Shown here: one piece after another, positions 7,150 through 32,797 of the stretch
Layout of the letters: each line of letters opens with the position of its first letter
Position numbering within the stretch: the stretch's first letter is position 1
Origin: Acuticoccus yangtzensis
GTDB lineage: Bacteria > Pseudomonadota > Alphaproteobacteria > Rhizobiales > Amorphaceae
DNA length: 64,000 nucleotides
NCBI RefSeq assembly: GCF_001927245.1
Contig: NZ_MJUX01000001.1
Location: 1,302,001 to 1,366,000, forward strand
Direction: 5' to 3'
The notes under the pieces: generated by a model
Told to the model about the DNA's origin: nothing
The model's database searches: none
The model's input: only the letters and a program-made list of their open reading frames with translations
Made by a program: the position numbers and the translations under genes

Positions 7150-8712
7150 TCAGCGGATGGCGCCGCCCAGCGACGCGACCAGCGTCGGCTCGGCCTCCTG
7201 CGACAGAAGCGGCGTCAGGCGGCGCACCACGACCCGGCGATTGCGCCTCTCTGCACCGGCCGTCTCCACCGCGAGAGCGCCTGCCCCGTAGCCTTGGGTG
7301 ACGAGGTTTTCCGGCGGGATCTCGAACGCCTCGGTGAGGAGGGTGGCGACGGTCTCGGCGCGGCGGTCGCTGAGGAGCATGTTGGCGACGGGATCGCCCT
7401 GCGCGTCGGTATGCCCTTCGATGAGGAAGACCTCGGCCGGGTTGCGGGCGATCGCCGCCGCCAGCGCCGCCCCCAGCACCTCCAGCGAGAAGATCTCGTT
7501 GTCGAGCACTTCCGCCGAATCGGTGTCGAAATGGACCCCTTCCAGCTCGACGCGGGGCATCAGATCGCGCACGCCCCGATTGAACAGCACCTGGTCCAGC
7601 GTGAAGACGCGGCCGAGAGGGGCGATCGGCTCGGCCGTCACCGCGGCGAAGAGCCGGTTCATGGACGCGGTGTCGCCGGCCAGCGCAGCAGCGGCGACGC
7701 GGCCCGCGGGCGGGGCGAGGTTCGGCACCTCGAGCGCGGCATCCCCCGGCCACCAGCGCGGCAGGTTGTTGAAGAAGGTGATCGCCTCGCCCTCGGCGGT
7801 GATCGCCATGCGGCTGACCAGCGCGCCTGACGGATCGCGCAGGGTGGAGACGACCGTGCCGTCGGCGCGGCGCGTTCGCGTCTCGCGCCAGAGGTTGGCA
7901 TATTCGAAGGTGTCGAATGTGTCGGCGCGCCAGCGGAAGCGCCCGTCGCCCACGTCCTGGACGATGCGGGTCTCGCCGTTGCTGCGCGTGCTGCGGGTGG
8001 GGCTCCCCTCGGCGGGCTCGTTGCGCCAGAAGGCGAGCGGGCCGAGGCCGCCGGGAGGGCCGCTTCTCTGCTCGTCCTCCCAGGCGCGTTGAGCCCGCTC
8101 GCGCATGGCGGCCCCCTGCCCGTCCGCGGCGGTGCGCTGGTCGGCGCTGGCGGCCATCAGCGCATCGCGGGTGGGGCTGTGCCGCTTCACGCGAGAGGCC
8201 GCACGGCGGTCGTCGCTCGCGGTCCACGTGTCGGAGGTGACGAGCCGCGCGCGGCCCGCCGGGCGCCCTGTCGAGAGCCTGGCGGTACCGACCCCGGTGC
8301 CGACCTCTCCCGTGACCCCGTCCCCCGTGACGCCCTGCCCTGTGACGCCCTGCCCCGTGCCCCCGTGCGCCGCATAGGCGGTCGCCGGCGCATCCACGCT
8401 GCCGGTGAGGTTTCCCTCGGCGCGCCACGGAGCGCGGCTCTTCTGCTGGCTGGTGCGGGCGGCCTCTTGCTGCGCCCGGCGCGCGGCCTCCTGCTGTTTC
8501 TCGATCTCGCGGCGCTTCTTCTCCTGGGCGCGGCGCTGCGCGTCCAATTCCTTCTGGCGGCGGGCGCGAGGGTCGTCGGCGAACTGCACCACCAGGGCGG
8601 CGGACGGGAGGCCGAGCACCGGAACGGGAATGCTCCGCGCGAACGCCCCCGCGGCGCCGGGATTTAGGAGGAACGCGGCCACCGCAAGAACGACCAGTCG
8701 GAACACTTGCAC
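7150..8712 (-). CDS. OmpA-family outer-membrane/peptidoglycan-binding protein
   Basis: This is a secreted envelope protein of about 520 residues. The start taken is the GTG at 8712, with GAGGTG five bases before it, which puts a clean signal peptide (hydrophobic core LVVLAVAAFLL, cleavage near AGAFA) at the N-terminus; the ATG at 8751 would add 13 residues. Next come a charged helical stretch rich in Arg, Gln and Lys, a Gly-Val-Thr repeat, and a long middle region of no recognised family. Residues from roughly 400 on are an OmpA-like domain with IEGHTDAQGDPVANMLLS..RA and a final NRRVVVRR, the peptidoglycan-binding signature. It probably anchors the outer membrane to the wall. Confidence 0.85.
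   Translation of the reverse strand: MQVFRLVVLAVAAFLLNPGAAGAFARSIPVPVLGLPSAALVVQFADDPRARRQKELDAQRRAQEKKRREIEKQQEAARRAQQEAARTSQQKSRAPWRAEGNLTGSVDAPATAYAAHGGTGQGVTGQGVTGDGVTGEVGTGVGTARLSTGRPAGRARLVTSDTWTASDDRRAASRVKRHSPTRDALMAASADQRTAADGQGAAMRERAQRAWEDEQRSGPPGGLGPLAFWRNEPAEGSPTRSTRSNGETRIVQDVGDGRFRWRADTFDTFEYANLWRETRTRRADGTVVSTLRDPSGALVSRMAITAEGEAITFFNNLPRWWPGDAALEVPNLAPPAGRVAAAALAGDTASMNRLFAAVTAEPIAPLGRVFTLDQVLFNRGVRDLMPRVELEGVHFDTDSAEVLDNEIFSLEVLGAALAAAIARNPAEVFLIEGHTDAQGDPVANMLLSDRRAETVATLLTEAFEIPPENLVTQGYGAGALAVETAGAERRNRRVVVRRLTPLLSQEAEPTLVASLGGAIR
8309..8368 (-). repeat. Four 15-bp tandem units inside the OmpA-like gene
   Basis: Units at 8309, 8324, 8339 and 8354 resemble CCCGTGACGCCCTGC with a few changes. 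Because the unit is 15 bases it stays in frame and encodes repeats of the type GQGVT/GDGVT on the minus strand. This is a likely flexible linker and a site of copy-number change. Confidence 0.75.
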
Positions 8713-8857
8713 GAAACACCTCACACGATCTGCGCCCCCATTGGAGCGCATCTCGCTTGGCGCGGGCTGGCCCCGTCCCCGCCGCGGCAACGGGGTTCGG
8801 CCGGGACGCAGCGGCTCCGAGCCCGGTGCCGCGGCGTTCCGGCTCTTCGCGGAAGGC

Positions 8858-10342
<1,485 letters not shown>

Positions 10343-20104: not shown

Positions 20105-20596
20105 TCAGGCCGGGACCTTGTGCGCTTCCACGAACCAGCGAGCGCGGTCCGCGGTGCGGCTGATCTCGGTGAAGAGATCGGCCGTGCCCTCGTCACCCGC
20201 CTCGCTCGCCTCGTCGATCGCCTTGCGGATGTTCTCCGCATAGGCGGCCAGCGACTTGGTCACCGCCTCGACATGCTCGTCGATGGCGACGGCCTGCATC
20301 GGATACTTCGGCAGGCGCGAGGTCTGCGCGGATACGTCCACCGTACCCTCGGCCTGGCCGCCCAGGACGGCGATGCGCTCGGCCGTCAGGTCCACCTTCT
20401 CCTCGATCTGCTCGTGGAGGTCGTCCAGCAGTTCGTGAAAGCCGATGAAGTTCGGGCCCCGCGCGGTCCAGTGGGCCTGCTTCAGCTGATAGACGAGGTC
20501 GATGCCGTCGGCGAGGTTCGCCTGCAGCACACCGACCATCGCCTTGCGCGTCTGCTCGCTGATGTCGGTCGAGGTCGGAATCTTCTTGGCTTTCAT
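20105..20596 (-). CDS. dps: Dps-family ferritin-like DNA-binding protein
   Basis: This 163-residue mini-ferritin forms dodecamers that oxidise and store iron and protect DNA in stress. The ferroxidase signature is clear in [27 protein letters not shown] with His, Asp and Glu ligands, followed by the [16 protein letters not shown] helix. The start is MKAKKIPTS at 20596, preceded by GAAGGAGAC; the frame extends upstream without need. A lysine pair at the N-terminus could bind DNA. It has its own terminator, and a long upstream region suggests complex control. Confidence 0.92.
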
Positions 20597-20972
20597 CGTC
20601 GTCTCCTTCGCCATGGGGGACGGGGCGGCGGTAAAGCCGTCGCAGCAGATCCAGCGGCCGCGTGACCGGGCGCCCGTGAGGCGCGAGCCCGCTCGCCGCT
20701 CCGCTTCTGCCATGTCCCGTCCCGCTGGGCCGGTTGGTGAATTCGGCGGGCCGGTTCACACCGCACCCGATAAACAGTCACCCTTGAAACGACGCCCCCT
20801 CTGTTTCGTTTCATGCGACCCGCGAAAATCTGCGGCGCCCGGCGTATGGCTGCGTCCCGCCCGCGCCCCCTTGAAGCGCGGCACCAGCTCGCCCCGGCCG
20901 CGCTCCTGCCTCGGCCCAGGGTGCGCTGATAGCGATGACGCCGATGTTTCCCACCCGAAGGTAGTTCAGACA
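20597..20972. other. Gene-free divergent control region between dps and the chemoreceptor
   Basis: These 376 bases hold no convincing gene. Two direct copies of GGGCCGGTT occur near 20730 and 20750, flanking GGTGAATTCGGC. The stretch around 20765-20820 is less GC-rich and is the likeliest place for promoters. I see no recognisable OxyR, Fur or sigma-factor consensus. Confidence 0.4.
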
Positions 20973-23000
20973 ATGCGATTGGGCACGCGTATCACGCTTG
21001 TGGCTATGGTTCCCCTCCTCGGCCTGACCGCGCTGTGCGTCTGGGTACTGAGCGAACAATATGTCCTGTGGCAGCGCGCCGACATGGTCATGCGCAGCGT
21101 CACCTACGCACCGTCCTTCGGCGGACTGGCGCACGAGATGCAGAAGGAACGGGGCCTCTCCGCCGGTTACATCACCGCGAAGGGGGGCAATTTTACGCCG
21201 CTTCTGGAGGAGCAGCGCCGCCTGACCGACGCGGCCTACACCAAACTGGTCGCGATGCTGGACAACGGCCCGCTCGAGGGCGCGATCGGCGAGGCCGCCG
21301 ATGCGGCCATGGCCGAGATGGGTGCCCTCGCCGACATCCGCCGCCAGGTCTCCGACCTCACCTGGACCGTGCCCGACATGGCGAAAGCCTATACGGGGCG
21401 CATCATGGCGCTGATCACCACCGCCAGCATGGTCGCCGACACCGCCGATGATGTGCGCACCGCGCGCATCGCCGGTGTCTACAACGCGCTGTTGATGGCC
21501 AAGGAGATGGCGGGACGTGAACGGGCCGCGGGCGCGGTCGGGTTCGCCGCAGGCCGGTTCTCCCACCGGCAGCTCCACACCCTCGCGACCCTCGGCGCCG
21601 AACAGGACGCCCTCGTCGCCCTCGCCTTGTCGCGCGCTCCTGCGAAGGACCGGCCGGCCATCGAGGCCATCACCACAGGCGAAGAGGCGGCCCGTACCGA
21701 TGCGCTGCGCGAGGTCGCCCTCGAAAGCCTCACGAGCGGCAACGTCGGCGGTATCACCGGCCCGGAATGGTTCGCCGCCTCCACCGCCCGTATCGACGTC
21801 ATGAAGAAGGCGGTCGATGCGGTCACCTCCTCGCTGCTGACGGTGGCCGGAACCCACGTCGGCGAGGCGCGGACGCACTTCTTCATCATCGTAATCGCCG
21901 GCGGCCTCAACACCGTGCTGTGCCTCTTGGTGTCCATCTTCAACGTGCGCGGCCTGAAGGCACCGATTTCGCGGATCGTCGCGCAGATCGGCCAGGTCAG
22001 CAGCGGCACGACGGACATCAGCATCGAAGACGCCGACCGCTCGGACGAGATCGGTGACATCGCCTCGGCGCTGGAGCTCATGCGGCGCGGCGAGGTGGAG
22101 CGCAAGAAGCTGCTGGAGAAGGAGGCGGAGCGCCATCGGCTGGAGGAGCTGAGGACCAAGCGCATGGAGGAGGCGATCGACGCCTTCCAGTCGCGCGCCC
22201 AGACCACGCTGGCCGCGCTCGACGAGATGAGCCACGCTTTGACCGAAGTCGCCGACAATCTCGCCGACACTGCGGATCATACGGCCTCCGGCTCGACCCA
22301 GGCCAAGGCGTCGTCCGACGAAGCGGCGCGCGCGGTCCAGGGTGTCGCCGCGGCGATCGACCAGCTCCACGGCTCCATCCACGAGATCACCAGCAAGGTG
22401 GCCACCTCGCAGAAGGCGACGGACGCGGCCGCGTCGGTGGTCACCGCCACCTCCAAGCGCGTCACCGGCCTCGCCACCGCGGCGGAGGCGATCAACAACG
22501 TGGCGACGATGATCGCCTCGATCGCCGAGCAGACGAACCTTCTCGCCCTCAACGCCACCATCGAGGCGGAGCGGGCGGGGCCTGCGGGACGCGGTTTCGC
22601 CGTGGTGGCGCACGAGGTGAAGGCGCTCGCCAATCAGACGGCTGCGGCCACCAGCGAGATCGCCAAGCAGATCGAGGACATCCAGAGCGAGACGCGCTCG
22701 GCGGTTCAGGGGATCGACGAGATCCTGGGGCGGTTCGATGCGCTGCGCTCGTCCTCGCAGGGAATCTCCTCGGTGATGTCGGAGCAGAGCGCGGCGACGC
22801 GGGACATCGGCGCCGGCGTTCAGAGCGCGACGGAGGGGTCGCTCACGGCCTCCAAATCCGTCAGCCTGGTGGTGACGGCGGCAGAAAAGGCGTCCCACGA
22901 CGCTCACGACGTGCAGTCCACCGCGACGCGGATGCGCGACGTCTCCAGCCAGCTCCGCGAGGTCTTCTCGACCTTCCTCACCCAAGTGCGCGCCGTCTAG
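20973..23000 (+). CDS. Methyl-accepting chemotaxis-type receptor with periplasmic NIT domain
   Basis: The 675-residue membrane receptor has an N-terminal helix ([20 protein letters not shown]), a large periplasmic nitrate/nitrite-sensing (NIT) domain marked by [14 protein letters not shown] near residue 50, a second membrane helix near residue 305 ([18 protein letters not shown]), a HAMP linker, and a C-terminal MCP signalling domain. The signalling hairpin reads [20 protein letters not shown] then [17 protein letters not shown]. At the tip Glu replaces a common Ala and Pro replaces the usual Glu. No che genes are adjacent and no pentapeptide tail is seen. The ligand is not known. Confidence 0.88.
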
Positions 23001-23117: not shown

Positions 23118-24248
23118 TCAGACGACGCGGAGCCCCTCGCGCCACACGCCGCGCACCACCGGGATCTCGCCGCGCTCGCGCCGCCGCACCCGCACGATGT
23201 CGCCGCGCAGGCCCTCCACGAGCCGGCCGCGGTCGTCCATCTTCAGCGCCCGTGCCGGGTTGGCGGACACGGTGGCCAGCGCCGCCGGCAGCCCCCACCC
23301 TTCCCGGTCCGACAGCACGAACGCTGATTGCAGCATCGAAAAGGGCACATAGTCGGACGAGAGGATGTCCAGCATCCCGAGGTCCGCCAGCTCCGCCGCC
23401 GACACGTTGCCCGAGTGCGAGCCGCCACGCACCATGTTCGGACCGCCCATCAAAATCTGCATGTCCGCCGCGCGCGAGGCCTCGGCCGCCTCCACCGTGG
23501 TCGGAAACTCGGCGAGCGTCACGCCGTCGCGGATCGCCTCGTCGACATGGCCCGTCGTCGCATCGTCGTGGCTGGCGATGATGACGCCGCGCGCCTTCGC
23601 CCGTTCGGCCAAGGCGCGGCGGTTGCGATCGGACCACTTGCCCGCCCGCGCCACCCGCTCGGCCTTGAAGAGCTCGAACTCGGCATCGTTCATGCCGCTC
23701 TTGCCCTGGAAATAGATCTTGTAGGCCTCCATCGAGCGGAACTGGCGCTGACCGGGCGTGTGGTCCATCAGCGAGATGAGCCGCACGTCAGCGACATCCT
23801 CGAACAGCTCGAACCCCGCGATCGCCATCTCGTCCGACACCTCGCATCGCAGGTGGAAGTGATGCTCGGCCCTCAGACGGCCCTCCGCCCCGGCCGCGGC
23901 GATCGCATCGGCGAAGTCGCGCGAGTCCTGGGAGGTGATGGCGGCGTCAGCGTCTAGCCCCACCCGCAGCGCGTCGAGCACGGTGGTGATGCCGGAGGCG
24001 GCGATCTGCGCATCGTGGGCCTGGATCGCGGCGGTGACGTTCCAGCGCACCTTCGGGCGGGGGGCGATGTGGGTCTCGAGGTGATCCGTGTGCAGCTCGA
24101 TGAGGCCGGGGACGATATAGTCACCGCCGCAATCCTCGCCCGCGGCCGGCCCTTCGCCGATGGCGGCGATGCGCCCGCCCTCCAGCACGATATGGCCGCG
24201 CACCACCTCGTCCGGCAGCACAAGATGGGCATTGGTCAATGTGGTCAC
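23118..24248 (-). CDS. phnM: Alpha-D-ribose 1-methylphosphonate 5-triphosphate diphosphatase PhnM
   Basis: This amidohydrolase-fold enzyme of the C-P lyase pathway removes pyrophosphate from the PhnGHIL product to give the 5-phosphate used by PhnJ. The 376-residue protein has metal ligands in PGLIELHTDHLETH near residue 50, further His in EHHFHLRCE, a SHDDATTGHVDEA motif, and SDYVPFSMLQ. Length and motifs match PhnM. Its ATG overlaps the stop of the DUF1045 gene (ATGA), so they are translated together. It lies apart from phnGHIJ, with the rhodopsin-like gene and phnKL between. Confidence 0.93.
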   Translation of the reverse strand: MTTLTNAHLVLPDEVVRGHIVLEGGRIAAIGEGPAAGEDCGGDYIVPGLIELHTDHLETHIAPRPKVRWNVTAAIQAHDAQIAASGITTVLDALRVGLDADAAITSQDSRDFADAIAAAGAEGRLRAEHHFHLRCEVSDEMAIAGFELFEDVADVRLISLMDHTPGQRQFRSMEAYKIYFQGKSGMNDAEFELFKAERVARAGKWSDRNRRALAERAKARGVIIASHDDATTGHVDEAIRDGVTLAEFPTTVEAAEASRAADMQILMGGPNMVRGGSHSGNVSAAELADLGMLDILSSDYVPFSMLQSAFVLSDREGWGLPAALATVSANPARALKMDDRGRLVEGLRGDIVRVRRRERGEIPVVRGVWREGLRVV

Positions 24249-24919
24249 GGGGTCTTGTCCGAATTGTCGTTGGCGGCGGTGCCCTGGGCGGCAATCACCC
24301 TGAAGGCCCCGCCGGGCGTGTCTTCACGATAGATGGCGTGGACGAGCGGGTGGGCCGCCTTGTCCAGCGCGCCGAAATGGGAGCGCGCGGCCGCGGCGAC
24401 GGCCTCGGCACCGATGCCGAGCGGCCCGGTCAGCGTCATGTGGAACTGGAAGCGCTCCATCACATAGGGATAGCCCCATGTGTCGAGCAGCTCACGCTCG
24501 CGCGGGTCCAGCCGTTCAGGCTGGCGGCGGGCGAGGTCGGCCGCGGTCAGCGGGGCGCGCAGCGGCTCGAACGCCTCCACCGCGGCGCGCGCGGCGGCGC
24601 CGAGCGCCGGATCGTCCGACCGGAAGGCGAGGAAGCGCGACAAGGGGGCGATGGTGAGCACTGGAACGATGGGCGCAACGCGGGCGATGTGGTGCCGGAA
24701 GGCGGCAACGAGGTCGAGCTCGGACACACCGTCGGCAAGCCGGAAGGGGGCGCGCAACGTGGCGTGGAAGCCGTAGCGCGCGGGTACATGGGCCGACGCC
24801 TCGGGCGGTGCGACGGGGGGCATCGCCGCGTCGAAAAAGGGCGAGCGGCCGAGCCAGGAGGCCGCGGCCTCGGCCAATTGCGACCCGTCGGGCGGGGTCA
24901 GATAGACGGCGTAACGCAT
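24245..24919 (-). CDS. DUF1045 phosphonate-associated protein (2H phosphoesterase-like)
   Basis: This protein of about 224 residues has two HxT motifs, YGFHATL near residue 54 and FQFHMTLTG near 160, the hallmark of the 2H phosphoesterase fold. DUF1045 proteins are found beside phn genes and are thought to process a cyclic or phosphorylated ribose intermediate, possibly as a ribosyl cyclic-phosphate hydrolase; that activity is inferred. The start taken is MRYAVYLTPPDG at 24919, as in relatives; an ATG five codons upstream also exists. It is the first gene of a two-gene unit with phnM. Confidence 0.85.
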   Translation of the reverse strand: MRYAVYLTPPDGSQLAEAAASWLGRSPFFDAAMPPVAPPEASAHVPARYGFHATLRAPFRLADGVSELDLVAAFRHHIARVAPIVPVLTIAPLSRFLAFRSDDPALGAAARAAVEAFEPLRAPLTAADLARRQPERLDPRERELLDTWGYPYVMERFQFHMTLTGPLGIGAEAVAAAARSHFGALDKAAHPLVHAIYREDTPGGAFRVIAAQGTAANDNSDKTP

Positions 24920-25035
24920 CGCACCTTCATACACTCGTGACGAACGATTCGAACCTCACGGCCGTTTCATCACAAAAGACTGCAAGGCACGAGCCGGAGC
25001 GACCCTATGCCGAGGACAGACCATCCGGGCCGACC

Positions 25036-25055
25036 TGTCACATATGTTTGTGACA
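25036..25055. promoter_or_regulatory. Perfect dyad TGTCACA-N6-TGTGACA before the rhodopsin-like gene
   Basis: The two 7-base arms are exact inverted repeats separated by TATGTT. The site lies 37 bases before the rhodopsin-like start and about 115 bases before the divergent DUF1045-phnM unit, so it could control either. The arm geometry is CRP/FNR-like in spacing but does not fit the CRP core TGTGA-N6-TCACA, and it does not fit the PpsR pattern TGT-N12-ACA. Confidence 0.55.
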
Positions 25056-25092
25056 CGGCGTCGACACCCCTCCTCCCCGCAGGAGGCGGCCG

Positions 25093-26172
25093 ATGAGCGC
25101 CGCCAGCGTGATCACCGCCGCGGACTGGGTGGGCGCGGCCTTCCTCGCGACCGGGGCGGGCGCGATCCTGGTGCTCGGCGGGTTCGATACGCCGCGCCAG
25201 TCCGCCCGCACCGCGCTCGCCGCCGTCACCGCGATGCTGGCCGCCGCCTTCTACGCCTTCCCCGCCCTCGGCATCCCGGCGCTCCACCTCGGCTTTGCCG
25301 CGGTGGAGGCGCATTATGTGCTGTGGCTGGCCGCCTCGCCGCTGGTCCTCGCCGCGCTGATGGTAACCGCGACCCCCGCCGGCCGCAGCCTCTTGCCGAT
25401 GGCGCTGACCGCCATCTTCATCGACGTGGCGATGGTCGTCGCGCTGGCGGTCGCGGGCGGCGCATCGGGCGGCGCGGCGGTGGTGTGGTTCATCGCCGCC
25501 GCGATCCTCCTCGGCATTCTCGCCGCGGTGCTGTGGGGCCCGGTGCGCTCGTTCGCCCATGAGGGCCACCCTGTCCGCGCCGCGCTTTATGACCGCCACG
25601 CCGGCATCCTCACCGTCCTGTGGGGGCTGTGGTTTCTGGCGGTGCTGCTGGGCCCGTCCGGCGTCGGGGGCATCGGTCCGGTGGCGCAGGAGGTGGTGTT
25701 CATCCTGGTCGACGTTGCCGCGTTCGCCGCCTTCGGCCTGTTGGTGGCGCTGGAGGACGAGAAACTGGCGCCGTTGGAGGAAGGCGCCGAGGCCGAGCAC
25801 ATGGCCGAGCGCGCGGCCGCCGAAGTGCCCTACCCGCTGCGGCCGGCCGCACTGACCGGCGAGGCGGCGGAGGCCGAACGGCTTATCGCCCTGCACTATC
25901 GCCGCGTGGCCGAGCGGGAAGCCAGGCGCCGGGCGCGCCGCGAGAGGGTCGCCGTGCGCCCGCGCAAGCCTGCCCCTGCCGCCACGCGCGCCGCCGCCAA
26001 GCGTGAGGAGCGCCCCCCGCGCCACCCGCGCAAGCGTCCGGGCCTCTTGACCGCGCTGACCGCCACACCGTTCGGGCCGCTGACACGAGAGGATGCCCTG
26101 CCCGTCGCGCTGGTCGCCGGGGTGCTGATGGTGGTGGCGCACGCGGACAAGATCGGCGGCCGGCGCCGCTGA
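25093..26172 (+). CDS. Microbial-rhodopsin homologue lacking the retinal-binding lysine
   Basis: The 359-residue protein begins at an ATG behind AGGAGG and shows seven hydrophobic helices at about 12-30, 40-60, 72-93, 100-122, 128-151, 170-192 and 197-221. Helix C reads AHYVLWLAASPLVLAAL and aligns without gaps with bacteriorhodopsin ARYADWLFTTPLLLLDL: W78 and P83 match W86 and P91, but R82 is H74, D85 is L77 and D96 is A88. Helix F keeps VLW (W177) and the following LGPSGVGGIGP loop. Helix G reads ILVDVAAFAAFGLLVAL, so D207 matches D212 but F211 stands at the Schiff-base Lys216. It therefore cannot bind retinal in the usual covalent way. Residues 222-359 are a basic Arg/Pro-rich extension ending in one more hydrophobic stretch. 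A sensory or structural role is a guess. Confidence 0.8.
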   Translation: MSAASVITAADWVGAAFLATGAGAILVLGGFDTPRQSARTALAAVTAMLAAAFYAFPALGIPALHLGFAAVEAHYVLWLAASPLVLAALMVTATPAGRSLLPMALTAIFIDVAMVVALAVAGGASGGAAVVWFIAAAILLGILAAVLWGPVRSFAHEGHPVRAALYDRHAGILTVLWGLWFLAVLLGPSGVGGIGPVAQEVVFILVDVAAFAAFGLLVALEDEKLAPLEEGAEAEHMAERAAAEVPYPLRPAALTGEAAEAERLIALHYRRVAEREARRRARRERVAVRPRKPAPAATRAAAKREERPPRHPRKRPGLLTALTATPFGPLTREDALPVALVAGVLMVVAHADKIGGRRR

Positions 26173-26175
26173 GCC

Positions 26176-26786
26176 TCAGCCGCCGTGCTTTTCCAGGAAC
26201 ACGTCCACCGGGAGCGCCTGAAAGTCCGGCAGTGCGGCGGCCAAGCGATCGTGCGGCCAATCCCACCAGGCGAGCGCCATCAGCCTGTCGCCCACCGCAG
26301 CGGGGAAGCGCGGGCGCAGCGGCCGGGCCGGAACGCCGGTGACGATCCAGTACGGCGCCACGTCGCGCGTGACCACCGCGCCCGCCCCGACGACGGCCCC
26401 GTCACCCACGGTGACGCCGGGCATGATGGTGGCACCGTGGCCGATCCACACGTCGTTGCCGATCCGCACCCGGTCGGCGCGGCGCCAGTCGAACAACCCT
26501 TCGTCGTGCGCCGCGCCCTCGAAATAATCGCCCGCGCGATAGGTGAAGTGGTGCGACGAGGCCCGCTCGATCGGATGGTTCGACGGGTTCAGCCGCACCG
26601 CAGCGGCGATCGACACGAACTTCGCCACGTCCGCGTAGAGCACGTGGCCGTTTCCATGATGTAGCTGTAGTCGCCGAGCGTGGACTCGGCGATCGCGGTG
26701 TGGGCCGCAATCTCGGTGTAGCGGCCCAGCGTGGTGCCGGTCACCCGCGCCGTGGGGTCCACGGTCGGCGCCTCGGAAAGCCGCAT
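26176..26786 (-). pseudogene. Phosphonate-locus hexapeptide-repeat transferase, frameshifted
   Basis: The first 40 or so codons (from [20 protein letters not shown] at 26786) and the remaining codons down to 26176 ([20 protein letters not shown], then [20 protein letters not shown]) together match a left-handed beta-helix acetyltransferase of the type found in phn operons. They lie in different frames. The break is at a run of three A on the coding strand (complement TTT at 26651-26653): one more base there would restore METATC to [11 protein letters not shown]. It is either a genuine one-base deletion or a sequencing error. If intact, it would acylate an aminophosphonate or antibiotic-like substrate. 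It follows phnL by 4 bases. Confidence 0.8.
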
Positions 26787-26790
26787 CGGC

Positions 26791-27483
26791 TCAGGCGGCC
26801 CGGCGCGGCGAGAAGGCCGTCACGTCGACCACGCGGTCGCACACCGCCTCGCGCACCTCGTGGTCGTGGAAGATGCCGAGGATGGCCGTCCCCGCCGCCT
26901 TCTTCGCCGTGATCAGGTCCACGACGACGGCGCGATTGGCGGCGTCCAGGCTCGCGGTCGGCTCGTCCACCAACAGCAGCGGCGTCTTGCGGATGAACCC
27001 GGCGGCGATGTTCACGCGCTGCTTCTCACCGCCCGAGAAGGTCGCCGGCGGCAGGCCCCACAGCCGTTCGGGCAGGTTGAGGCGCGTCAGCAGCGATGCG
27101 GCCTCCTCGCGCGCGCCGTCGCCGCCGCCCGCCGCGCTCACGAGGTCGAGCGCCGAAACGCGTGGGATGGCGCGCAGGAATTGCGTCACCTCGGCGATCG
27201 TCTCGCGCCGCACCGCGGCGAAGTCGCGCGCGGTCATCGCCGTGGTGTCGACGAGGGCGCCGCGGTGGCGCACCTTCACCGCCCCGGACCGCGCCTGATA
27301 GGTGCCCGCGACGATCTTCATGATCGAGCTTTTGCCCGCGCCGGACGGGCCGCCCAGCACCACGCATTCCCCCGCCGCGACGGTGAAGCTGACGTGCTCC
27401 AGCACCGGCAGGACGATGCCGCCGCGCAGGTGCATGGTGAAGGCTTTCGAGAGATTTTCGACCGCGAGGATGGTGTCCGCCAT
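26791..27483 (-). CDS. phnL: C-P lyase complex ATPase PhnL
   Basis: This ABC-type ATPase subunit works with PhnGHI to attach phosphonate to ribose triphosphate. The protein of about 230 residues has Walker A GGPSGAGKSS near residue 46, the signature FSGGEKQRVNIA, and Walker B LLLVDEPTASLD, with the characteristic TQFLRAIPRVSALDL segment of PhnL. The ATG at 27483 follows the phnK stop by two bases; a GTG at 27489 that overlaps the stop is an alternative. Cotranscribed with phnK. Confidence 0.92.
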   Translation of the reverse strand: MADTILAVENLSKAFTMHLRGGIVLPVLEHVSFTVAAGECVVLGGPSGAGKSSIMKIVAGTYQARSGAVKVRHRGALVDTTAMTARDFAAVRRETIAEVTQFLRAIPRVSALDLVSAAGGGDGAREEAASLLTRLNLPERLWGLPPATFSGGEKQRVNIAAGFIRKTPLLLVDEPTASLDAANRAVVVDLITAKKAAGTAILGIFHDHEVREAVCDRVVDVTAFSPRRAA

Positions 27484-27485
27484 GG

Positions 27486-28418
27486 TCACACCGCCAAAAT
27501 CGAGGAGACGAGGAGCTGGGTGTAGGGGTGCTGCGGGTCTTCGAGCACCCGGTCGGTGAGGCCCTCCTCCACCACGCGCCCGCCCTTCATCACCATCATG
27601 CGGTCGGCGAGCAGCCGCGCCACGGCGAGATCGTGGGTGACGAGGATGGCGGCGAGGCCCAAGTCGGCGACGAGGCGACGCATGACGTCGAGCACGCGGG
27701 CCTGGACGGAGACGTCGAGCCCGCCGGTTGGCTCGTCGAGGAAGACGAGGCGCGGATGGGTGACGAGGTTGCGGGCGATCTGCAGGCGCTGGCGCATGCC
27801 GCCGGAGAAGGTGCGCGGGGCGTCGTCGATGCGGTCGGCGGGGATCTCGACACGCTCAAGCCAGGCGGCGGCGGTGGCGCGGATGTCGCCATAGTGGCGG
27901 CCGCCGACGGCCATCAGCCGCTCGCCCACGTTGCCGCCGGCGGAGACCGACATGCGCAGCCCGTCGGCGGGGTTCTGGTGGACGAAGCCCCAGTCGGTGC
28001 GGGCGAGGCGGCGGCGCTCGGCCTCGGTCATATCGTCGATATCGGTCACCGTGCCGTCCCGCAGGCGGTAGGTGATGGCGCCGGAGGTGCGCGGCAGGCG
28101 GCCGGAGACGGTGCTGAGGAGCGTGGTCTTGCCGGAGCCGGATTCGCCGACGATGGCGAGCACCTCGCCCGGCCAGAGCGAGAAGGTGACGTCCGCGCAG
28201 CCGATGCGCGCGCCGTAGGTCTTGGTGAGGCCGGTGGCGGTGAGGAGCGGCGCGTCCTCGTCCGGCGTACCGGGCGCGCGCGGCTGATCCGCTCCGGGAT
28301 GCGCCCCGTGCGCCGCAGCCCTGCGGAGTGCGGTGCCGGTGTTCAGGGTGTGCGGCGCGGCGCTCCCCTCTGCCGGTCCCGGCGGGGATGGGAGAGGGTT
28401 CGCCGTGTCGGTGGCCAT
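27486..28418 (-). CDS. phnK: C-P lyase complex ATPase PhnK, with N-terminal extension
   Basis: This ABC-type ATPase binds the PhnGHIJ core complex. Walker A GESGSGKTTLL, signature FSGGMRQRLQIARN and Walker B LVFLDEPTGGLD are intact, and WGFVHQNPADGLRM is characteristic of PhnK. I take the ATG at 28418 with AAGGA upstream, giving 310 residues; PhnK is normally about 255, so roughly 55 Ala/Pro-rich residues precede the conserved LLTATGLTKTYG. The frame stays open upstream through a 15-bp repeat and is not likely coding there. It is separated from phnJ by 1.4 kb. Confidence 0.9.
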   Translation of the reverse strand: MATDTANPLPSPPGPAEGSAAPHTLNTGTALRRAAAHGAHPGADQPRAPGTPDEDAPLLTATGLTKTYGARIGCADVTFSLWPGEVLAIVGESGSGKTTLLSTVSGRLPRTSGAITYRLRDGTVTDIDDMTEAERRRLARTDWGFVHQNPADGLRMSVSAGGNVGERLMAVGGRHYGDIRATAAAWLERVEIPADRIDDAPRTFSGGMRQRLQIARNLVTHPRLVFLDEPTGGLDVSVQARVLDVMRRLVADLGLAAILVTHDLAVARLLADRMMVMKGGRVVEEGLTDRVLEDPQHPYTQLLVSSILAV

Positions 28419-28852
28419 GGCCGTGTCCTTACTCTGCGCGGGCGTATCACACTGCCGCCGCGTGATGGCGCGGGCCATCTTGCGTCCCCGGCGGTGCGCG
28501 GCCGCCGTGCCGCCTGCCCTGCCGCCGCTCCGATGCCGCCCAATGCCAAGGCGCCATGACAGGGTTGTGACGCCGACCCTGCGCCCGAATGCGGTGCCGG
28601 TCCACCGGGCGGTGCGCAAAAGGAGGCGCGTGGGCGTCGGCCGGACCGCAGACCGAGCCTGACCGCGGTGCGGCGGGCGGCAACCCTGTGGACGGCAACC
28701 CTGTGGACGGCAACCCTGTGGACGGCAACCCTGTGGACGGCAACCCTGTGGACGGCACCGCGGCAATGAACGGCGCAGGCGCGGAGACAAGGAAGCATTA
28801 ACCAAGTGCGTTCACGACTTGGTCAGATCATGGGCGCCGAAGGGATCGGGAG
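28419..28852. other. Gene-free gap between phnK and a divergent lipoprotein gene
   Basis: The 434 bases contain no gene I can support; open frames on both strands come from the high GC and a 15-bp tandem repeat. It must hold the promoter for phnKL and probably one for the lipoprotein, but no PHO box or clear hexamers were found. Confidence 0.5.
28679..28753. repeat. Five perfect copies of a 15-bp tandem repeat
   Basis: The unit GGCAACCCTGTGGAC is repeated five times without a mismatch and is followed by a partial copy. Perfect identity implies recent expansion. Being a multiple of three it creates repetitive open frames on both strands, but none has a credible start. Confidence 0.95.
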
Positions 28853-29251
28853 ATGTCGAGACTGGCCATGCCTCTGGCTCTGGCGGCCGCGCTGTCGCTG
28901 TCGGGATGCATCTCGGGCGATTGGAGCGGGCTCGGCCTCTTCGCGGAGGCGGACAGTGAAACCTGCCGGTCGGACGGTTGGGTCGACGTGTGCCAGGACG
29001 GCGGGGCGATCCGCGTCACCGACAACAGCCCCGGCGCGCGCCAGCTCAGCGAGGCGGAGCTGGCGGACCGGGCCTATGACCTCATCGACGTCGCCCAGCT
29101 TCCTGTCGGCGGATCGCAGTCGGGACCGGCCGGCGCGGGATTTTCGCTCGGCCGGACGGATCTCAGCGCTTGCAGCGTCGGCAGCGGGATCGCCGAGGGG
29201 AACACCGCCATTTTGACGTGCCGCCTGACGATGGTGGTCACCCTCGACTGA
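28853..29251 (+). CDS. Small lipoprotein of unknown function
   Basis: The 132-residue protein has a lipoprotein signal (MPLALAAALSLSGC) with lipobox LSGC at Cys19, so it is probably lipid-anchored. The mature part has further cysteines (ETCRSDGWVDVCQDG, DLSACSVG, ILTCRL) that could form disulfides. I recognise no family. The ATG follows GGGAG. It lies on the opposite strand inside the broken phn locus, and its end is close to the convergent small secreted protein. Confidence 0.7.
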   Translation: MSRLAMPLALAAALSLSGCISGDWSGLGLFAEADSETCRSDGWVDVCQDGGAIRVTDNSPGARQLSEAELADRAYDLIDVAQLPVGGSQSGPAGAGFSLGRTDLSACSVGSGIAEGNTAILTCRLTMVVTLD

Positions 29252-29289
29252 GGGCGACCACCACCGCGTCATGCGGGTTCGGCGAGCGA

Positions 29290-29598
29290 TCAGCAGCCGG
29301 TCGGGGCGAGGCTGACGTAGTCTTCCTTGATGCGCTTGCGGGTCTCGATATAGAGCGGCGCGTTGCGGCCGACGACGTAGCGGTTACCATCGACGGAAAT
29401 GGTCTTCTGGGCGCCGCGCAGCTTGATGCCCTTCGGATAGACTTTGTAATGGGCCGGGTAATAGGTGCCGACGTAGCACTTTTGTGCACCGCGGTCGTCC
29501 CGCTCGACGACATAAGAGTCCGTCGGGTCCCCTGCCAGCGCGGGCAGAGCGAAAGCCGACATGGCGGCGCTAATGGCAGCAATACAGATCAGTTTCAT
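29290..29598 (-). CDS. Small secreted protein of unknown function
   Basis: The 102-residue protein has a signal peptide (MKLICIAAISAAMSAFALPA, cleavage near ALAGD) and a mature part of about 80 residues with two cysteines (QKCYVGTYYP and the final Cys) that could pair, rich in Tyr, Lys and Arg. I recognise no family. The ATG at 29598 has GGGAG in front. The upstream 170 bases are unusually A+T-rich for this window and should carry its promoter. It separates phnJ from phnK. Confidence 0.65.
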   Translation of the reverse strand: MKLICIAAISAAMSAFALPALAGDPTDSYVVERDDRGAQKCYVGTYYPAHYKVYPKGIKLRGAQKTISVDGNRYVVGRNAPLYIETRKRIKEDYVSLAPTGC

Positions 29599-29773
29599 AA
29601 AAATCTCCCACAAGCCAAGGTCCATCAGGGGCACCCCGTGCCTGTGGATACAAGTAAAAATTGGGTTGCGCTGTCAATACTTCGTTTACCGATTTGTGCG
29701 TGCCGGCGCATTGCCATAAGTCTTAACGTGCGCCGTTAACCATTTTTTCGCCCGCCGATCGGCCGAGTTGAAC

Positions 29774-30619
29774 TTAAACGTTCGGCGCCTCCGCGGCGCG
29801 TCTCTGCGTGCAGAAATCCGTATCCGAGCAGGTGAACATGCGCCCACCCGCGTCGTCGGTCACGATCTCGTCAAGGTAGACGCCGGTCGCCCCGCACAGC
29901 GCGCAGGGTGCATCGAACGCCTGCACCGCGAAGGGATGGTCCTCGAAGTCGAGGCTCACGACCTCGGTGAAGGGCGGCACCGCGTAGATGCGCTTCTCAC
30001 GTCCGGCGCCGAAGAGCTGCAGCGCGGGCGAACGGTGCATCTTCGGATTGTCGAACTTCGGCGTCGGCGAAGGGTCCATGATGTACCGCCCCTCCACCTT
30101 CACCGGGTAGGCGTAGGTGGTGGCGATGTGGCCGTGGCGGGCGATGTCCTCGTAAAGCTTCACGTGCATCAGGCCGTATTCTTCCAGCGCGTGCATCACC
30201 CGCGTCTCCGTCTCGCGCGGCTCCAGGAAGCGCAAGGGCTCGGGGATCGGCACCTGGAAGACGAGGATCTGCCCGGCCGAGAGCGGCGTCTCGGGGATGC
30301 GGTGGCGGGTCTGGATGATCGTCGCGTCCCTGGTCGCCGTCGTCACCGCCACGTTGGCGACGCGGGCGAAGAAGGCGCGGATGGACACCGCATTGGTGGT
30401 GTCGTCGGACCCCTGGTCGATCACCTTCAGCGTATCGTCGGGGCCGATGATGGAGGCGGTGACCTGCACGCCGCCGGTGCCCCAGCCATAGGGCATCGGC
30501 ATTTCGCGGCTGGCGAAGGGGACCTGGTAGCCGGGGATCGCCACGGCCTTCAAAATCGCCCGGCGGATCATGCGTTTGGTCGCCTCGTCGAGATAGGCGA
30601 AGTTGTAGGTGAGCGTCAC
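29774..30619 (-). CDS. phnJ: Carbon-phosphorus lyase catalytic subunit PhnJ
   Basis: This radical SAM enzyme breaks the C-P bond, releasing methane or another alkane from ribose-1-phosphonate-5-phosphate. The 281-residue protein has the unusual SAM-cluster motif CX2CX21C at C239, C242 and C264, with a further Cys at C270 equivalent to the catalytic thiyl Cys of E. coli. The start GTG at 30619 overlaps the phnI stop (GTGA); the frame stays open upstream but the conserved N-terminus MTLTYNFAYLDEATKRMIRR begins here. It is the last gene of phnGHIJ. Confidence 0.96.
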   Translation of the reverse strand: MTLTYNFAYLDEATKRMIRRAILKAVAIPGYQVPFASREMPMPYGWGTGGVQVTASIIGPDDTLKVIDQGSDDTTNAVSIRAFFARVANVAVTTATRDATIIQTRHRIPETPLSAGQILVFQVPIPEPLRFLEPRETETRVMHALEEYGLMHVKLYEDIARHGHIATTYAYPVKVEGRYIMDPSPTPKFDNPKMHRSPALQLFGAGREKRIYAVPPFTEVVSLDFEDHPFAVQAFDAPCALCGATGVYLDEIVTDDAGGRMFTCSDTDFCTQRRAAEAPNV

Positions 30620-31716
30620 TCCGCCGCCTCCTGCGCGTCCGTTTCGCCGGGCGCGGCGCCGGCGGCGGCCTCGGCGCGGAGGCGCCGCACCAGCGCCGCC
30701 TCGGCCTGGAAGTCCACGTAGTGGGGCAGCTTCAGGTGCTCCACGAAGCCGGTCGCCTGCACATTGTCGCTGTGGGCGATGACGAATTCTTCGTCCTGCG
30801 CCGGCGCCACGCGGTCCTCGCCGAGTTCGCCCGCCCTCAGCGCGCGGTCCACCAGCGCCATCGCCATCGCCTTCCTCTCCACCCGGCCGAAAACGAGGCC
30901 GTAGCCGCGCGTGAATTGCGGCGGCTCCTCGGCGGACCCGTGGAACTGGTTCACCATCTGGCATTCGGTCAGCGTCATGGTGCCGAGCGTGACGGGGAAG
31001 CCGAGTTCCGGCACGTCGAGCTCCAGCTCCACCGCGCCGGTGCGGATCTCGCCCACGAAGGGGTGGTTGCGCCCGTACCCGCGCTGCGTGGAATAGGCGA
31101 GGCCGAGAAGCCATCCCTCGTCGCCGCGCGCCAACGCCTGCAGCCGCACGTCACGCGGCAGCGGCGAGACGAGCGGCTCGCGCGTGAGGTCGCCCGGCTC
31201 GGCGTCGCGCGCGGCGGGGTCCGCGGCGTCCGGCTCGACAAGGCCCTCGTGGCCCAGAACGTCGGTCACGCGCGGGGCGGGGCCGAGCGGGTCCGCGGTG
31301 GCGGGCGGCTCAGCACCAAGGTCCGGCTCGATCAGGCGGTGCGTATAGTCGAAAGTCGGCCCCAGCACCTGGCCGCCGGGAAGGTCCTTGAAGGTCGCGG
31401 AAATGCGCCGCTCGATCGCCATCGCCGCGGTGTCCACGGGGCGCGAGGCGCCGAGCCGCGGCAAGGTGGTGCGGAAGGCGCGCACGAGGAAGATCGCCTC
31501 GATGAGGTCGCCGCGCGCCTGGCGGATGGCGATGGCGGCCAGCTCCGGGTCATAGAGCGAGCCCTCGGCCATCACCCGGTCCACGGCGAGCGTGAGCTGG
31601 CCGGCGATCTGCTCGGCGGTGAGTTCGGGAACGGCGGGATCGCCGCGGCGGTCCTTGGCGAGCAGGCGGTGGGCGTTGGCGATCGCCGCGGCGCCGCCCT
31701 TCACTGCGACGTACAC
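30616..31716 (-). CDS. phnI: C-P lyase core subunit PhnI
   Basis: This nucleosidase subunit displaces the base of a purine ribonucleotide with phosphonate, in the PhnGHI complex. The 366-residue protein begins MYVAVKGGAAAIANAHRLLA and carries the conserved GLVFGRVERKAMAMALVDRA and EFVIAHSDNVQATGF segments. The start is a GTG at 31716, overlapping phnH by 16 bases. Tight overlaps on both sides show one operon with coupled translation. Confidence 0.95.
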   Translation of the reverse strand: MYVAVKGGAAAIANAHRLLAKDRRGDPAVPELTAEQIAGQLTLAVDRVMAEGSLYDPELAAIAIRQARGDLIEAIFLVRAFRTTLPRLGASRPVDTAAMAIERRISATFKDLPGGQVLGPTFDYTHRLIEPDLGAEPPATADPLGPAPRVTDVLGHEGLVEPDAADPAARDAEPGDLTREPLVSPLPRDVRLQALARGDEGWLLGLAYSTQRGYGRNHPFVGEIRTGAVELELDVPELGFPVTLGTMTLTECQMVNQFHGSAEEPPQFTRGYGLVFGRVERKAMAMALVDRALRAGELGEDRVAPAQDEEFVIAHSDNVQATGFVEHLKLPHYVDFQAEAALVRRLRAEAAAGAAPGETDAQEAAE

Positions 31717-32297
31717 GTGACCTCCGTGGTGCGCGGCAGCCCGACGACGCCGGCGCCCGCTTCGTCGATGAGGATGAAATCCAGACCGCGCGGGAACAGC
31801 GCCCGGTTGGCGGCGAGGCGGGCGAGCACCGCGTCGGACAGGTCGGCGTCGAGGGTGCGGGCGCCGTCGATGCCGGGGCCGGCGAGGCGCAGCGTGCGGC
31901 CTGAAAGGCGCACCGGGGCGATGAGCGTGGCGGAGCGGTCCGGGTAGACGTCGTCGCCAACGCTGAGCCCATTCGGCAGCGCGTTCAGACCGGTGACGGC
32001 GGCGAAGCGCGCGGCGGCCGGGTCGGCGGTGACGGGGGCGCCGGTGTGGAAGGTGAGCCAGGGCGCGGCCGCCGCGAAGGCGGGGGCGAGATAGACCGGC
32101 GTCTCCTGGTCGGCGAGCGTGAGGAGCACGGCGCCCGCCCCGGCAGAAAGCGGCGCGGGCGGCCCGGCGGCCGGCAGAGCGTGGACGGTCCCGGGCTCGG
32201 CGAGCGCGGACAGGACGGCGCGAAAAGCGGCCTGCGCGTCGAACACGGGGTGCGCGAAGGCGCCCTCAAGGGCGGTGGTGAGATCGGAGTTGTCCAT
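31701..32297 (-). CDS. phnH: C-P lyase core subunit PhnH
   Basis: This 198-residue structural subunit of the PhnGHIJ core has a fold related to PLP-dependent transferases but no cofactor site. It starts MDNSDLTTALEGAFAHPVFD, with the family pattern of a FR.vl.AlaePG motif (FRAVLSALAEPGTVHAL). Its ATG overlaps the phnG stop by one base. The length is typical. Confidence 0.93.
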   Translation of the reverse strand: MDNSDLTTALEGAFAHPVFDAQAAFRAVLSALAEPGTVHALPAAGPPAPLSAGAGAVLLTLADQETPVYLAPAFAAAAPWLTFHTGAPVTADPAAARFAAVTGLNALPNGLSVGDDVYPDRSATLIAPVRLSGRTLRLAGPGIDGARTLDADLSDAVLARLAANRALFPRGLDFILIDEAGAGVVGLPRTTEVTCTSQ

Positions 32298-32797
32298 CAG
32301 TCCTCGCCCCGCACCATGGTGAAGAAATCGACCCGCGTGGCGGCGACCTCGGCGGCGCGGGCGGCCTCGCGCGCGGTGCGGGCGGCGTCCATCGCGCGGG
32401 CGGCGGCCGCGATCGTTTCCGCGTGCGCCGCGGTCTGGGCCAGCGCGTCGAGGAGGGCGATGGCTTTGGCGCGCGTCTCGTCCCGGCCCATGACGTGGCC
32501 GAAGCCGACTTCGCCGCTGGCAAGCTTCACGGTGCAGCGCGCCACGGTGGCTTCGCCCGCATTGAACGGCGCGCCGCCGCCGCCGATGCGTCCGCGCACC
32601 ATGACGAGGCCGACCTCCGGCCCGCGCACGACGGTGTAGTCCGGCGCGGGGTCGATGGCGCCGAGCGTCGCCAGCACCTCGTCCGCCTCGGCGAGGGCGA
32701 GGGTGCGCAGGAGGGCCTGGCGGGATGCGATGGCGGGGTCCGGCGCCGGGGCGGGATCGGGCGCGGTGGCGGCGGGGTCGGGGGCGGGTCGGGTCAT
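32297..32797 (-). CDS. phnG: C-P lyase core subunit PhnG
   Basis: This 166-residue subunit of the PhnGHI nucleosidase complex contains YTVVRGPEVGLVMVRGRIGG and the GEVGFGHVMGRDETRAKAIALLDAL segment conserved in PhnG. The first 22 or so residues are a Pro/Asp/Ala-rich leader not seen in E. coli PhnG, but no later start codon exists before the conserved SRQALLRTLALA. GAGG precedes the ATG at 32797. It is the first gene of the operon; no phnF or phnCDE genes lie upstream in this window. Confidence 0.92.
   Translation of the reverse strand: MTRPAPDPAATAPDPAPAPDPAIASRQALLRTLALAEADEVLATLGAIDPAPDYTVVRGPEVGLVMVRGRIGGGGAPFNAGEATVARCTVKLASGEVGFGHVMGRDETRAKAIALLDALAQTAAHAETIAAAARAMDAARTAREAARAAEVAATRVDFFTMVRGED

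Follow-up and report, generated by a model that had tools for sequence, protein, structure and literature searches.

We analysed a 64,000-nucleotide window of the Acuticoccus yangtzensis genome (5.04 Mb in 29 contigs). Inside its C-P lyase (phn) cluster lies a gene for a rhodopsin homologue without the retinal-binding lysine (Table 1). This gene is divergent from phnM and from a phosphonate operon gene that we take to be DUF1045, and it is convergent with a hexapeptide transferase gene. An earlier note on this DNA had described an intact frame of 359 codons with a good ribosome-binding site, and both were found at the positions listed.

Table 1. Features of the rhodopsin homologue and its surroundings (positions in the window)
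Feature	Position	Strand	Evidence or remark
NIT-HAMP-MCP chemotaxis transducer, upstream beyond phnM	20502..23000	+	PF08376, PF00672, PF00015; true start may lie downstream of the listed ATG
phnM	23118..24248	-	TIGR02318, E 4.1e-137
Divergent neighbour, TIGR03223 phosphonate operon protein	24245..24934	-	186 bits, below the curated cut-off of 248.95
Perfect 7-bp inverted repeat TGTCACA-N6-TGTGACA	25036..25055	+	Overlaps the direct repeat
Pho-box-like direct repeat TGTCGACNNNNTGTCACA	25049..25066	-	Ends 26 bases before the ATG
AGGAGG ribosome-binding site	25081..25086	+	Read from the sequence; 6 bases 5' of the ATG
Lysine-less rhodopsin homologue, 359 aa	25093..26172	+	PF01036, E 2.5e-17; ATG at 25093, stop codon ends at 26172; orthologues in five other Acuticoccus genomes
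Seven-helix rhodopsin core, residues 1-219	25093..25749	+	
Phe211 codon TTC, Schiff-base lysine position	25723..25725	+	Alignment with nine lysine-bearing relatives
Charged tail, residues 220-331	25750..26085	+	24 K/R and 17 D/E; begins with the conserved LED
C-terminal hydrophobic helix, residues 332-354	26086..26154	+	
Convergent neighbour, phosphonate-cluster hexapeptide transferase	26176..26643	-	TIGR03308, E 2.3e-71; model match starts at position 52, true start may lie upstream
C-P lyase genes phnL, phnK, phnJ, phnI, phnH, phnG	26791..32797	-	Family matches; other frames between phnK and phnJ

The DUF1045 gene was found in 8/8 Acuticoccus genomes. It adjoins the rhodopsin gene, divergently, in 6/6 genomes that carry one, and the hexapeptide transferase lies on the far side in four of these. 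In G007 and G001 the far side has no phn genes; the frame there presumably resembles an NMT1-type binding protein. The direct repeat between the divergent genes, which by consensus we take to be a Pho box, was recognised by eye, exactly or in a looser form, in 5 of the 7 intergenic stretches read. It is identical in G003 and G005 and looser in A. mangrovi and G006, and no clear copy was seen in the intergenic stretches of G007 and G001. Because the search pattern was written after the site was seen, a chance value would be circular, and only the recurrence in relatives counts. We take the candidate Pho box to serve DUF1045-phnM, and it may serve those genes only.

The window protein matched the microbial rhodopsin profile PF01036 with 63.5 bits, above the curated cut-off of 24.6, and the xenorhodopsin chain 7zng in the PDB with an E of 2.5e-15. 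An unrelated seven-helix family was rejected, as no other Pfam family appeared up to E 1 and no NCBIfam family up to E 0.01. Structure prediction gave a seven-helix fold with low overall confidence (mean pLDDT 58, pTM 0.48). By profile score and predicted fold, the protein belongs to the type-1 (microbial) rhodopsins, as the earlier note had proposed.

When the window protein was aligned with nine lysine-bearing relatives, its residues paired with those of bacteriorhodopsin as follows: H74 with R82, L77 with D85, W78 with W86, P83 with P91, A88 with D96, W177 with W182, D207 with D212 and F211 with K216. The residues previously listed as kept (W78, P83, W177, D207) and as replaced (Leu77, His74, Ala88 and Phe211 for D85, R82, D96 and the lysine) were thus the same. 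A lysine elsewhere in helix G had been named as grounds for rejecting this picture. Residues 1-223 hold no lysine, the first being residue 224, which rules out an alternative lysine facing the pocket. The Schiff-base lysine of helix G and the carboxylate counter-ion at the D85 position, both of which mark a light-driven retinylidene pump, are missing. Therefore the protein is not a normal light-driven pump, in agreement with the earlier claim. As a type-1 homologue without the lysine, with an intact frame and six orthologues, it falls in the descriptive class Rh-noK or ORP.

Beyond helix G the protein continues for 140 residues, a charged linker followed by a hydrophobic stretch that is probably an eighth membrane helix. 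Residues D334, P337, A339, A342, L345 and A349 of this helix are invariant in 5/5 aligned proteins, and model confidence there is mostly below 50. Read by eye, the end of the G001 protein is maybe a degenerate form of the same helix. Searched separately, the stretch 25783-26169 of the tail gave no Pfam match up to E 1.

PF01036 matches were found in 5 of 8 Acuticoccus genomes. A profile search of the window's genome for a second, normal rhodopsin, as had been suggested, found this one gene only. The sixth orthologue, in G001, is strongly diverged (14.8 bits, below the cut-off) and was found by reading the site beside DUF1045; other lysine-less relatives too distant for the profile may have been missed in the same way. 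All six frames are intact (321-363 codons), and four are 37-52% identical to the window protein. No orthologue was found at the DUF1045 site in G004 and G006. When P0003 was used to search for an orthologue elsewhere, G004 and G008 gave no match, G006 only weak matches (E 0.15 and above) and G009 one weak match with an internal stop (E 0.04). The sites without a rhodopsin gene correspond to L080 9234-10466 and L078 8720-9370. In G006 the hexapeptide transferase and DUF1045 genes directly adjoin, with no rhodopsin gene between them.

We also searched beyond these genomes. With tblastn, the G003 orthologue had no match at 1e-5 in 72,556 plasmid records; a lysine-bearing relative searched against plasmid records matched 8, with Methylobacterium best. 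Of the 26 candidate stretches from a pattern search of named genomes, only that of A. mangrovi was confirmed; the pattern was one short stretch, so this count says little about range.

Lysine is present at the Schiff-base site in 0/6 orthologues. G000 and G003 have F (TTC) there, G005 has L (CTG), and G007 and A. mangrovi have R (CGC); G001, whose alignment is uncertain, has C (TGC). The pocket is partly kept, with W78 in 4/6, M114 in 5/6, W177 in 5/6 and D207 (Asp212) in 5/6, and the counter-ion and G122 positions vary freely. The A. mangrovi orthologue, located at L046 9980-10942, keeps R82, D85 and D212 and has Arg at the lysine site and L at W86. It is possibly a halfway stage.

In an IQ-TREE analysis of 63 rows, the six Acuticoccus rows form one clade (99/95). 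This clade groups with bacteriorhodopsin-like/DTG-type pumps. The 12-row group that holds it (96/93) also contains SpaR with its near-copy from Sphingomonas, glycylhalorhodopsin, the DTG rhodopsin of Pseudomonas and two rows of Methylobacterium type. Support for the closest sister of the Acuticoccus clade is weak (88/34), G001 is a very long branch, and the program warns of an unusual letter composition in the Acuticoccus rows. A 100/100 branch separates the Acuticoccus proteins from the proteorhodopsin-type rows. A Haloarcula rhodopsin encoded beside an MCP gene, itself a long branch, falls outside the 12-row group; haloarchaeal ORPs were not among the rows. The simplest reading is a single loss of the lysine, before Acuticoccus radiated or early in that radiation, followed by drift of the site to R, F, L or C.

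A second group of lysine-less rhodopsins was found in Hyphomicrobiales. PF01036 matched in 34 of 397 genomes of this order. Of these 34, 17 have a residue other than lysine at the site: the five Acuticoccus genomes, eight that carry R and four that carry L, three of the latter read by eye. The twelve from outside Acuticoccus fall together in a single clade (100/100) on the proteorhodopsin side of the tree, and therefore lost the lysine independently of Acuticoccus. Eight changed K to R together with D85 to G, and four changed K to L. In a class-level search, PF01036 matched in 36 of 385 genomes, and the 30 best-scoring places of those matches all have lysine. We read the surroundings of eight of the twelve (L085, L086, L087, L013, L014, L081, L082 and L083). 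In 8/8 a permease-like frame precedes the rhodopsin and a long, similarly starting flotillin-like frame follows it; Pfam confirmation of flotillin and permease was obtained for L086 only, where flotillin (PF15975, E 1.7e-34) lies at 7987-9711 and the rhodopsin at 7228-7926. The twelve are probably flotillin-associated rhodopsins outside streamlined aquatic bacteria.

The proposal to look for blh and crt genes was followed with family searches. The Blh/BCD family PF15461 was found in 0/8 Acuticoccus genomes, and a squalene/phytoene synthase family gene, which may or may not serve carotenoid synthesis, in 8/8. Of the 17 lysine-bearing Hyphomicrobiales genomes, five were included in the same PF15461 search and four of these had a match, compared with 0/12 of the other lysine-less ones. 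RPE65-type oxygenase PF03055 was likewise found in 0/8 Acuticoccus genomes, with a positive control in 2 of 14 genomes. The Acuticoccus genomes searched are 89-98% complete. Despite the absence of both families, retinal could possibly come by other routes or by uptake, as working rhodopsins can be made by bacteria that lack any known retinal gene and other retinal routes exist, according to the available part of one report (PMC7734400).

To compare constraint, we expressed the differences at each codon position as a fraction of composition-expected saturation. For the seven-helix part of five proteins the values at positions 1, 2 and 3 are 0.61, 0.50 and 0.86, compared with 0.46, 0.34 and 0.83 for DUF1045 and 0.23, 0.17 and 0.70 for phnM. 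Therefore the frame of the rhodopsin homologue is under purifying selection and is constrained less than its neighbours. It also evolves faster, with a mean identity of 45% versus 58% for DUF1045 and 78% for phnM. The dN/dS check suggested earlier was run by NG86 over ten full-length pairs of the five proteins and gave 0.44-0.87; with third positions close to saturation (GC3 0.79-0.94), this ratio says little, and the constraint is supported by the codon positions instead. The six intact frames and the codon-position pattern rule out a pseudogene as the full explanation, and the earlier statement that the gene is not an obvious pseudogene holds.

The N-terminus lies outside in known rhodopsins. 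We placed it there and used the predicted helices to assign each position to the cytoplasmic or the extracellular half. Among five Acuticoccus proteins, 32 of 119 positions in the cytoplasmic half are invariant versus 14 of 106 in the extracellular half (Fisher p 0.013). The nine lysine-bearing relatives have the opposite bias, 11/104 versus 24/101 (p 0.015), counted with a less strict threshold of 78% or more identical letters. In a circular-shift test, the difference between the five Acuticoccus proteins and five of the nine relatives had p 0.044, and the Acuticoccus entropy difference alone had p 0.067. G001 has no cytoplasmic bias (consensus matches 29/80 versus 21/64). On the cytoplasmic side, conservation is most marked in the loops A-B, C-D and E-F and where helix G ends. 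Conserved elements include HPVR (E-F loop), LED (end of helix G) and the C-terminal helix. These comparisons are suggestive, not strong, of conservation having moved from the retinal pocket to the cytoplasmic helix ends in five of the six orthologues.

Lysine-less rhodopsins are already known in hundreds of copies. In the available parts of two surveys they make up 48 of 170 opsins from haloarchaea (PMC4915679) and some 600 of 5,558 genes for microbial rhodopsins (PMC7714340). Among our tree rows, the nearest lysine-bearing kin are the BR-like/DTG-type rhodopsins (SpaR 8anq, Pseudomonas putida DTG rhodopsin 7w74 and the Methylobacterium rhodopsin) and glycylhalorhodopsin 8xx8. The window protein shares their fold, D212 and pocket tryptophans. 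Compared with these proteins, it has lost the lysine, the counter-ion and R82 and has gained a long tail and an extra helix. In plasmid records of Methylobacterium and Sphingomonas a Blh gene is annotated beside the rhodopsin, whereas none was found in the window's genome.

Haloarchaeal and fungal ORPs, as far as the accessible text describes them, are also type-1 opsin homologues with Arg or a hydrophobic residue instead of lysine and an eroded pocket (PMC4915679). In that account the haloarchaeal ORPs are kin of sensory rhodopsins, often beside chemotaxis transducers; the window protein, in contrast, is bacterial, BR-like and placed in a phn cluster. Rh-noK is likewise a lysine-less proteobacterial rhodopsin, but in the portions of the reports available it is xanthorhodopsin-related and sometimes in tandem with a working proteorhodopsin (PMC7714340, PMC10308929), whereas the window's genome has no second copy. 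Some flotillin-associated rhodopsins also lack the lysine (Q, T, L or R) and are suspected by the authors to be retinal-less, in the part of that work available to us (PMC10308929). These belong to the proteorhodopsin family and have an adjoining flotillin gene, unlike the window protein, which has phn neighbours and lies across the 100/100 branch. Our literature search found no paper joining Acuticoccus and rhodopsin, and none joining flotillin, rhodopsin and Rhizobiales; five papers mention rhodopsin together with C-P lyase and phn. As far as our searches show, a lysine-less BR-like lineage of Alphaproteobacteria that sits at a phn locus and carries an extra tail and helix is new.

The earlier note had left several roles open, namely non-covalent binding of retinal, binding of another ligand, or service as a structural or partner subunit. 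Our data speak for a protein that works without retinal and whose cytoplasmic face is conserved. We put a probability of about 0.6 on the window protein being a retinal-free, opsin-related membrane protein that acts as a scaffold or non-light sensor with a cytoplasmic docking face. The seven-helix core would provide the fold or a ligand-sensing platform, and the cytoplasmic face, charged tail and eighth helix would dock a partner protein or the protein's own tail, with no light step. Probably, the ancestral rhodopsin scaffold now serves a task that needs no light. Against this reading stand the entropy result for Acuticoccus alone, the unbiased G001, the low model confidence, above all in the eighth helix, and the fact that the data identify no partner gene. 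Fast evolution and the two of eight genomes without an orthologue at the site would also fit fading constraint. These two points, together with the dN/dS values (near-saturated dS) and the divergence of G001, could instead reflect slow decay, with weak constraint since the lysine was lost and the protein on its way out. We consider decay unlikely, because at 37-52% identity an unconstrained frame would be expected to hold stops and frameshifts, yet all six are intact. Second codon positions are well short of saturation compared with third positions, and new conserved elements such as HPVR, LED and the C-terminal helix are not expected of a decaying gene.

The locus itself raises the idea that the protein serves the phn cluster as a phosphate- or phosphonate-linked regulator or as an aid to transport, under the control of the Pho regulon. 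The constant DUF1045-phnM neighbour, the hexapeptide transferase at the 3' end in four of six genomes and the Pho-box-like repeat all fit. We find this role quite doubtful: the repeat is also present in G006, where the site lacks a rhodopsin gene, so it may serve DUF1045-phnM only; it leaves little room for an activator before the ATG; and the far side is not phn in G007 and G001. A photoreceptor with non-covalently bound retinal or carotenoid, in which Arg or pocket aromatics replace the lysine, is very improbable. The partly kept pocket, Arg at the site in 2/6, R82 and D85 in A. mangrovi, the squalene/phytoene synthase family gene and the rhodopsins that work in bacteria without known retinal genes (PMC7734400, as available) are in its favour. 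Blh and RPE65-type genes are absent from all eight genomes, however, the counter-ion and G122 positions drift freely, and, in the available part of the haloarchaeal study, two expressed lysine-less proteins gave no absorption band with retinal (PMC4915679). Hardly credible is a receptor subunit of the nearby NIT-type transducer, as proposed for haloarchaeal ORPs. Counterparts of this transducer, 61% identical, occupy the same place in G003 and G005, but it has its own NIT sensor domain and is present in only 3 of 5 genomes compared, the window's included (a 30% match in G007, none in G002).

Returning to the retinal-free scaffold or sensor, a more specific form of it is a long shot: an eight-helix opsin family that serves as a signal or docking protein of phosphorus metabolism. 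Its former retinal pocket would recognise a small molecule such as a lipid or a product of phosphonate breakdown, and the cytoplasmic face and tail would signal to a phn or Pho partner. If true, a bacterial rhodopsin would have turned into a GPCR-like chemical receptor outside chemotaxis. The six species, each with the gene beside one conserved neighbour, offer a series in which the active site of a light pump is lost and the fold is kept. As far as the window's genome shows, the function of a lysine-less rhodopsin can be tested here in bacteria without a second, normal rhodopsin, and the suggested shift of conservation towards the cytoplasmic side leads one to expect a partner recoverable by pull-down.
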